From NCBI GenBank assembly GCA_030148805.1, contig JASBSS010000019.1:1-64000 (forward strand): a stretch of 64,000 bases of DNA, in the 5' to 3' direction. Below the pieces are notes generated by a model that was not told the origin of the DNA, did not search any database, and saw only the letters and a list, made by a program, of their open reading frames with translations. Both the position numbers and the translations under genes were made by a program. Shown one piece after another: positions 24,954 through 26,583 of the stretch. Position 1 is the stretch's first letter. Every line of letters starts with the position of its first letter. This DNA is from Thiogranum sp. (lineage in GTDB: Bacteria > Pseudomonadota > Gammaproteobacteria > DSM-19610).

Positions 24954-25150
24954 GGAATAACTCCTCGTTACTCAGTCGTAAAGTACAGCACAGGATAGTC
25001 GTTACGAGCGAAAGCTTACGCATTCCCTGATACTGCTGCAACAAATTTTTTCAAAAAAACCACAAGGTGTCGTTTTTGTATCATTGTCGCAACAAATTCA
25101 GGGCAGCGAACGCCGGAAACTCGTCAACCGCTCAATATCTCAGATAAAAT

Positions 25151-25178: not shown

Positions 25179-25285
25179 GACGACATAATGGCCGAAAACT
25201 TGAGCGCAGAGACCAAAAAAACCACAGCCGCCGGTCTAGAGACAGACGCACGAAAAACGGGGATATTCCATAACGAATTACTGAC

Positions 25286-25338
25286 AAAACAAAACCCGCC
25301 GTTGGCGGGTTCTGTTTTATTGGCTGGCGGACTAGGAT
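25286..25338 (-). repeat. Second copy of tRNA-Gln 3' end plus terminator
   Basis: These 53 bases are identical to 25438-25490, 152 bases to the right. On the minus strand the copy holds the last 18 bases of the tRNA (including CCA) and the following terminator, with stem arms at 25293-25300 and 25304-25311 and a TTTTGTTTT tract. Such a duplication of a tRNA 3' end is what site-specific insertion at a tRNA gene leaves behind. Confidence 0.9.
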
Positions 25339-25436
25339 GATTCGCCGCTTCGCGGCTCACCCCTGCGGGGCCGGCTGCGCCGTTCAAGCCCGCTACGCGG
25401 GCTTGTCGAACCCGAGGTTCTCATCCGAGTCCGCCA
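25325..25436. other. Structured element: 16-bp outer stem enclosing five triloop hairpins
   Basis: The outer arms 25325-25340 and 25421-25436 pair at 15 of 16 positions. Between them lie five perfect hairpins, each with a 3-base loop: 25344-25356, 25360-25370, 25372-25382, 25386-25404 and 25408-25420, separated by 1-3 bases. Four of the loops read GNA on the minus strand (GAA, GCA, GCA, GTA); the fifth reads TCG. The left outer arm is the duplicated tRNA-Gln 3' end. It has no coding potential. It could be a REP/MITE-like mobile repeat, or the folded part of an RNA transcribed past the tRNA. Confidence 0.8.
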
Positions 25437-25437
25437 T

Positions 25438-25472
25438 AAAACAAAACCCGCCGTTGGCGGGTTCTGTTTTAT
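25438..25472 (-). terminator. Terminator of the rplM-rpsI-tRNA-Gln unit
   Basis: Minus-strand stem AACCCGCC / GGCGGGTT (25456-25463 with 25445-25452) has a 3-base loop followed by TTTTGTTTTAT. It begins 10 bases after the tRNA CCA end. An identical copy lies at 25286-25320. Confidence 0.85.
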
Positions 25473-25546
25473 TGGCTGGCGGACTAGGATTCGAACCTAG
25501 ATTGGAGGAGTCAGAGTCCTCTGTCCTGCCGTTAGACGATCCGCCA
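25473..25546 (-). tRNA. tRNA-Gln (anticodon CTG)
   Basis: A 74-base tRNA with encoded CCA. The acceptor stem shows the weak U1-A72 pair and the G73 discriminator typical of bacterial tRNA-Gln. The anticodon stem GAGGA/TCCTC encloses loop CTCTGAC with anticodon CTG, which reads CAG. The T-arm contains GGTTCGAATCC. It sits 14 bases after rpsI on the same strand, so it is probably cut from the rplM-rpsI transcript. Confidence 0.95.
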
Positions 25547-26482: not shown

Positions 26483-26583
26483 AAAAAAAAGCGCAACTGG
26501 AGAAGTTGCGCTTAAAAACCACCAAAGGAGGATTGGAGGAGGCTGACCGGCTAGTTACGGTTGGGGGGCTAACCGATCAGCTG
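26483..26583 (-). ncRNA. Predicted free-standing small RNA with anti-Shine-Dalgarno loop
   Basis: This roughly 100-base transcript is bounded by a good promoter (26590-26617) and an intrinsic terminator: stem 26489-26498 with 26504-26513, then eight T residues on the minus strand. The 5' part can fold by pairing CTGATCGG with CCGGTCAG. Next come CCTCCTCC and a small hairpin CCAA-TCCTCCT-TTGG that presents an anti-Shine-Dalgarno sequence in its 7-base loop. rplM has its own promoter beyond the terminator, so this is not simply the rplM leader. It contains no ORF. An rplM attenuator is the alternative reading. Confidence 0.65.

Follow-up and report, generated by a model that had tools for sequence, protein, structure and literature searches.

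The tRNA-linked repeats (TLRs) of E. coli, first described in 1978 (Egan and Landy, 1978; later Rudd, 1999; both as cited in PMC8144298), number 22 at ten loci in strain K-12, their 3′ ends carrying 18-19 bp identical to the upstream gene (PMC8144298). TLRs are said to have "no known function" and a starvation claim for tyrT has been retracted, with rrA, rrB and rrF of E. coli being transcribed, conserved in at least 31 species and binding Hfq and CsrA in vitro, the CsrA binding being suggested to be unique among TLRs (PMC8144298). Elements resembling rtT upstream of rbfA are mentioned in a further paper (PMC2965389). ERIC repeats have also been described (PMC2229807), and the passages of that account considered here do not name inserts like the core discussed below; in the literature searched, which omits most subscription journals, no paper joining TLRs with ERIC inserts was found.

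The repeat behind tRNA-Gln(CUG)

The window is the whole stretch of 64,000 nt of Thiogranum sp. DNA analysed here, in which a tRNA-Gln(CUG) gene with an encoded CCA (25473..25546, minus strand; ARAGORN, Rfam tRNA 58.3 bits) sits between an rpsI-like open reading frame and a structured element of 112 bases at 25325-25436, the element lying 36 bp downstream of the CCA end on the same strand. Along the minus strand the tRNA and its CCA are followed by a terminator-like hairpin (25445..25463, scored on the plus strand and on the tRNA strand), by the 5′ arm of the element (25421..25436, minus strand), which from sequence and permutation test is an inverted, antisense copy of the 3′ strands of the tRNA acceptor and T-stem, and by hairpin H1. 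Then come GGTTCGA, a core module of four hairpins (25339..25405, minus strand), ATCC with the remaining tRNA tail and its CCA, and the same terminator-like hairpin again, identical to the first (25293..25311, scored on the plus strand). The core is flanked by the GGTTCGA and ATCC of the tail copy and is covered by a match to the core-only model R2 at 25336-25412, the window core having belonged to the R2 training set.

The 3′ arm (25321..25338, minus strand) repeats the final 18 nt of the tRNA with the CCA, 25321-25338 being identical to 25473-25490, and this is the tail copy by which E. coli TLRs are recognized; the tail copy is therefore a feature already known and the window element a new member of the TLRs. 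Since the arms are the tRNA tail copy and its inverse, the outer stem consists of host tRNA sequence and its inverted copy, so that the stem described in an earlier note on this DNA is real, its derivation from the 3′ end of the neighbouring tRNA having been missed there. Rfam RtT (RF00391) matches the window element over the full length (1-130) with 42.5 bits (E 4e-5), under the gathering score of 45, and the same-site relatives in genomes G007 (L003) and G006 (L004) score 45.9 and 50.0 bits. Secondary structure and core motifs are shared with the E. coli tyrT repeats, one of which (L087) is included in alignment A1. Judged by its sequence, the window element is a TLR of the Rfam RtT type belonging to tRNA-Gln(CUG), and the earlier statement that no named family has this layout gives way to the full-length RtT match and to the tail copy that defines E. 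coli TLRs (PMC8144298). DNA, RtT and R2 searches place the element at two places in the genome, the second copy lying behind tRNA-Gln(ttg) (L002 1488-1613; RtT 47.3 bits), in agreement with the suggestion that it is a repeat.

The layout is bounded by two identical direct repeats of 53 bp, copy 1 (25438..25490, minus strand) comprising the last 18 nt of the tRNA and downstream DNA with the terminator-like hairpin, and copy 2 lying at 25286..25338 (minus strand); a 152-bp unit (25286..25437, minus strand) is missing at the matching site of congeners G014 and G003. The 3′ ends of tRNA genes are usual integration sites, and the tail repeat resembles one, as expected had a phage or island using tRNA-Gln left its attachment-site repeat behind. 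Such a scar is very unlikely, as only 99 bp lie between the 53-bp repeats, with neither an integrase gene nor an island, and many tRNAs, 5S and ERIC all share a conserved core; the window element had no match in phage and plasmid records, nor the core pattern in viral contigs.

Two further observations concern the surroundings. A TTGTGGTTTTTTTGG-type motif occurs at about 25060-25080 and 25210-25230, between the element and a porin-like open reading frame, and several congeners carry it too, downstream of their tRNA-Gln(ctg). Immediately upstream of the rplM-like open reading frame, 26483-26544 on the minus strand (L001 2659-2720) matches RF02278 with 39.1 bits (gathering score 50), and loci of two congeners match with 45.7 and 35.5 bits; this stretch is possibly a ribosomal-protein leader.

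The fold put forward for 25325-25436, five triloop hairpins within a near-perfect 16-bp closing stem, was recovered, with 15 of 16 outer-arm positions paired as claimed. On the minus strand H1 (25408..25420) pairs GAACC with GGTTC, antisense and sense pieces of the T-arm, and is predicted from the fold; H2 (25385..25405; 9 bp, loop GTA), H3 (25372..25382; 4 bp, loop GCA) and H5 (25344..25356; 5 bp, loop GAA, between YGA and GAR) are drawn from fold and covariation, and H4 (25360..25370), a CCC-GNA-GGG hairpin of 4 bp with loop GCA, from fold, loop census and covariation. The stem lengths of 5, 4, 4 and 5 bp stand, the fourth stem having 9 rather than 8 bp. All five minus-strand loops have 3 nt (GAA, GCA, GCA, GTA and one TCG), so that the four GNA loops are confirmed; GNA loops are exceptionally stable in DNA.

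As RNA the element folds at -67 kcal/mol against a mean of -45.2 for dinucleotide shuffles (z -6.15), none of 200 shuffles being as stable. Under DNA parameters the minus strand reaches -41.6 kcal/mol (z -5.82), again with no equally stable shuffle, retaining the outer stem, H1 and H2 only, with H3-H5 rearranged. Five or more triloop hairpins occur in 43 of 6,389 112-nt steps of the window, and regularity beyond chance, as had been proposed, is thus a property of the whole fold, triloop hairpins alone being not very rare in the window. YGA-stem-GAR was also weighed as a hammerhead-like motif, a reading that was abandoned.

Hosts, arms and covariation

At E<=0.01 RtT found matches in 81 of 369 genomes of the class, with 24 above the cut-off, and R2 matched 157 of the 369, in 121 of 271 genera, at E<=0.001. 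A phylum draw of 299 genomes gave R2 matches at E<=1e-5 in 63; of these, 38 lie outside the class, and 36 of the 38 belong to family f200. Class and phylum scans used strict filters, with at most 8-15 candidates scored per genome, which makes the copy numbers minimum values. When named genomes were scanned with a pattern, 26 stretches matched: four carry the label Zetaproteobacteria or Mariprofundaceae, two come from a single 'Pedobacter' assembly (L079 and L081) and the rest are gammaproteobacterial by label; the tRNA-Ser context of L079 is like that of Moraxellaceae L072 and contamination of the assembly is therefore suspected.

An initial regular expression missed 23 of 90 sampled loci and nhmmer was used instead, which found nothing in 27 of 216 loci and gave 267 matches, from which 188 unique near-full cores were kept, 141 of them with a host (tail match at most 4 of 16). 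The other 47 comprise contig ends, decayed tails, hosts uncalled by ARAGORN, the orphans L110 and L133, and copies inside tRNA copies. The 141 cores have as hosts 16 tRNA species and tmRNA: Gln(ttg) 30, Ser(gga) 20, Tyr 17, Gln(ctg) 16, Ser(gct) 10, Ser(cga) 9, Ser(tga) 8, Arg(acg) 8, Arg(tcg) 6, Arg(ccg) 4, Glu(ttc), Arg(cct) and Arg(tct) 3 each, and Thr(cgt), Val(gac), Glu(ctc) and tmRNA 1 each; Lys(ttt) was also seen as a host outside this assignment. Among a further 34 core matches, 29 have a fitting same-strand tRNA or tmRNA (ARAGORN), four a tRNA-like tail by eye, and one is cut by a contig end.

Permutation tests used 114 loci, one per genome and host with tmRNA excluded (116 for the core-similarity test). 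An exact 16-nt tail copy is present at 84 of the 114 genome-by-host loci. Mismatches of the 3′ arm per 16 bases average 0.55 to the own tRNA, 1.79 to the same isoacceptor elsewhere and 6.57 to other amino acids, a fit owed in part to the choice of hosts by their tail match. The 5′ arm, unused in host assignment, has 3.65 mismatches per 12 to its own tRNA, 3.76 to the same isoacceptor elsewhere and 5.14 to other amino acids, and permutation within isoacceptors gave p<=1e-4 for either arm (114 loci). Only three of the 114 5′ arms match all 12 tested bases, and comparison of the left 60 nt with the antisense tail gave scores of 13.4 (own tRNA), 11.3 (same isoacceptor in other genomes) and 5.5 (shuffled). 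A reading of the element as a tRNA minihelix or RNase P substrate was set aside as not general, because several 5′ arms are without the acceptor part.

Alignments A1 (43 rows) and A2 (56 rows) were selected from 75 and 71 non-redundant candidates. Across the 43 diverse elements of A1, 91.5% of cells pair compared with 73.1% when shuffled, both sides have changed in 22 of 31 pairs, and the covariation score of 0.466 (0.151 shuffled) was reached in none of 500 shuffles and is lost on sliding partners. The compensatory changes that the earlier note had asked for in relatives are thus strong, and its refuting case of a single copy with no such change did not occur. There is an additional pair at the foot of H5, joining the Y after GGG with the R in GARTNAT (C-G 67, T-A 48, T-G 9, C-A 1). 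That tRNA ends were simply duplicated in tandem and decayed, the hairpins being chance products, would draw on the tandem copies that exist in G016 and in E. coli arrays and on the ease with which direct repeats recombine; with the covariation, matches to the model in 121 of 271 genera and the presence of this core in both D-loops and ERIC all speaking against it, such an origin is extremely unlikely.

Triloop hairpins in the cores have GNA loops in 294 of 412 cases and TNC in four, and CCC-NNN-GGG hairpins have GNA in 165 of 170. Counts of G.U against A.C (10 and 7; p 0.63, 126 stems) show no significant preference for either strand, the regular expression used having picked up few stems of H2 and H3. 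Compared with its complement, the tRNA strand gives the better fold in 129 of 147 cores as RNA and in 147 of 147 under DNA parameters, with loop and stem effects mixed and the latter figure probably reflecting a systematic loop term. In these folding models it is the tRNA strand, and not the complement, that carries the fold, which lends support to the earlier proposal of folding on one strand.

This preference in RNA folding, together with the strong covariation, is also what would be expected of a structured tRNA-precursor product, processed at the CCA of the tail copy and selected as a regulatory or processing RNA in the style of rttR or rrA/B/F. The rttR of E. coli is annotated as a 171-nt RNA ending at the CCA of a repeat, and some E. 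coli TLR copies do act as RNA, given that rrA/B/F transcripts exist and that Hfq and CsrA bind to them in vitro (PMC8144298). As an account of the elements in general a selected RNA is unlikely. A terminator-like hairpin lies between tRNA and element at 48 of 114 loci, including 15 of 16 at Gln(ctg), and also in the window, such that an RNA role is no common denominator; in addition there are congeners without the element, the same module lies in ERIC repeats and inside tRNA copies, and for TLRs the absence of a known function and the retraction at tyrT, both noted above, weigh on the same side.

Gain, loss and proposed insertion of the core

In keeping with spread between hosts, cores of different hosts in one genome are on average 0.695 identical (48 pairs) and those of the same host in other genomes 0.644 (743 pairs); label shuffles of same-genome identity gave 0.615 (maximum 0.656, p<=5e-4), a statistic that ignores genome kinship. 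For 54 elements in multi-host genomes the nearest core lies in the same genome in 17 cases, at the same host elsewhere in 10 and in neither in 27, so that nearest neighbours are mostly (37 of 54) in other genomes. The most telling example is G034, with 94% identity between the cores at Val(gac) and Gln(ttg) and with arms fitted to the different hosts.

The window site was compared across 11 genomes. Full elements are present in the window genome (G000), G006 and G007, pieces in G001, G009 and G012, with G015 doubtful, and G014, G003, G011 and G008 have the same tRNA and rpsI without the element, G014 and G003 being 96% and 95% identical to the window over a 201-bp tRNA-rpsI query. With full elements in G006 and G007 and pieces in three others, the element-less sites may be losses through the 53-bp repeats, and loss by direct-repeat recombination is as likely as gain. 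Loss of the stems with the flanks kept, which was to count against the element, was found in part, in the four congeners without it and the three with pieces, a pattern in line with a repeat being gained and lost, and not a refutation. Sequence comparison has thereby demonstrated element-free congeners, besides membership by tail copy, host-fitted arms and a covarying fold.

Cores also interrupt other sequences (^ marks the junction). At nine loci (L115, L134, L104, L137, L124, L048, L182, L192 and L195) near-whole tRNA copies, often with altered 3′ ends, are interrupted in the T-loop behind GGTTCGA. In three families cores lie behind CTGA in the D-loop of tRNA-Ser fragments (G281, G150 and G054; the matches in the last two being partial), the intact tRNA-Ser D-loops of these genomes reading GGCTGA^AGG. 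Between T1 and T2 of E. coli K-12 rrnB, a stretch used in many expression vectors, a core (E 1.2e-10) lies inside a copy of the 5S tail, which reads GTAGGA^core^ACTGCCAGGCAT where 5S has GTAGGGA^ACTGCCAGGCAT; the rrnB module is located at L292 633-715.

In two high-copy genomes the fetched stretch is without a tRNA in 15 of 18 inspected copies. Copies in G588 lie inside a dispersed repeat, and both the ends and the middle part of this repeat are also present in an E. coli ERIC locus; at G588 loci L250, L252 and L255 two to three modules per ERIC-like repeat were seen, some matches being weak, and multiple modules in one such repeat suggest repeated insertion. At L261, L263 and L264 of G576, where the fetched stretch is without tRNA, a second type of dispersed repeat has GCGA before the core and ACACAGGACGTGCGAG after it. 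The exact complement of ERIC1R, taken with ERIC2 from PMC3696847, is present at one of 291 loci (L256, a G588 copy) and absent from the window locus L001.

At dxs-yajO of E. coli three alleles were compared, without ERIC, with ERIC lacking the core and with ERIC containing it, the filled site reading GAACGA^core^CTCGCAGCC and the unfilled GAACGA^ATGCAGCC. ERIC inserts of ~70 bp have reportedly been noted by Sharp and by Wilson and Sharp. The filled ERIC query of 258 bp was covered to at least 80% in 169 of 5,426 E. coli genomes, and a longer query, satisfied by ERIC with or without the core, in 2,828. ERIC-plus-core queries also matched 279 plasmid records and 29 phage-collection records, several of the latter being labelled as Salmonella genomes, and such matches are as expected for a carried-along repeat. 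All four targets seen unfilled (T-loop, D-loop, 5S and ERIC) read GA^A, and in G588 and G576 most dispersed copies begin after GA, as known from filled sites alone. Junctions are imprecise, with CTC in the filled and AT in the unfilled ERIC, and GTAGGA in the 5S copy for GTAGGGA. The aligned alleles and targets demonstrate a module that fills or spares one site in E. coli ERIC and has four kinds of target.

A candidate insertion module among known systems

We favour, as the probable explanation, a small non-autonomous DNA insertion module at the core of the TLR, RNA products being secondary. The module, 67 nt here and ~65-100 elsewhere, would start with C, contain four hairpins and finish in a GARTA-type end, inserting behind GA, in unfilled targets between GA and A, and mostly at T-loop TTCGA^A; the targets would be exposed loops. 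Here its site would be an incomplete second copy of the tail of the neighbouring tRNA, flanked on the left by an inverted tail copy, giving a closing stem made of host tRNA sequence. We infer that the form in which the module moves is the tRNA strand, folded as single-stranded DNA, and that an enzyme acts in trans, the tail duplication arising at or after insertion and recombination with the tRNA keeping the tail in step.

REP/REPIN elements are high-copy, tagged and linked to a RAYT gene, and a REP/RAYT-type element moved by a Y1 (HUH) transposase is what the earlier note proposed. The GNA-loop hairpins and one-strand fold are compatible with a single-stranded DNA transposon, and Y1_Tnp (PF01797) is found in 114 of 157 core-positive genomes compared with 110 of 212 others (odds ratio 2.46, p 6e-5, uncorrected for kinship or genome size). 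PF01797 is, however, missing from 43 of the 157 core-positive genomes and the window genome, which holds two element copies only, has no PF01797 match at 95.87% completeness, so that the suggested RAYT/Y1 gene elsewhere in the genome was not found by this profile. On this evidence a REP/RAYT origin is quite improbable, and the assignment is set aside while the mobile behaviour it implied is supported.

For the insertion module, a broader claim would be that one GA-targeting mobile module underlies the E. coli TLRs, Rfam RtT, the rrnB T1-T2 spacer and the ERIC inserts, occurring in Gammaproteobacteria and at least one other class, bearing host tail on both sides at tRNAs and moving as folded single-stranded DNA through a putative enzyme; we put the chances of all this at about even. 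The comparison gives TLRs a testable origin, in a discrete module with a recurring target and with filled and unfilled alleles inside E. coli, and with hosts ranging from tRNA to 5S to ERIC. If true, sequences held under separate names would be tied together, pointing to a DNA-processing activity spread through Proteobacteria, and the cis-regulatory label that Rfam gives to RtT may describe a mobile element.

Among described systems, REP/REPIN elements with RAYT are likewise short, non-autonomous hairpin DNA, unlike which the window genome has two copies and no Y1 gene found. Rfam RF02902 (AaHKsRNA22) gives weak core matches in TLR and ERIC loci, all under its gathering score of 39.8. ERIC inserts are recognized by the core model, with E 1e-12 to 7e-10 among the main copies, and start after GA, but unlike TLRs have a dispersed repeat rather than a tRNA as host and no tail copy. 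In the K-12 infB-rbfA gap there was no R2 match, and R2 matches to the K-12 tRNA-Arg repeats are weaker (E 2e-8 to 9e-7), with H2 seemingly absent. The rrB region of E. coli has the same core between two terminators, much like the window (R2 E 1.2e-10), although the host of rrA, rrB and rrF, TLRs between T1 and T2, is 5S rRNA. The closest likeness is to the TLRs of E. coli K-12 (RtT, rttR), which lie behind a tRNA with an 18-19 bp tail equal to the 3′ end of the host gene, the tyrT and tyrV repeats having the same five-hairpin layout, in tandem copies with repeated downstream sequence. From these the window element differs in its host, tRNA-Gln(CUG), in belonging to another gammaproteobacterial lineage, in scoring just under the RtT gathering score, and in being a single copy behind a terminator-like hairpin.
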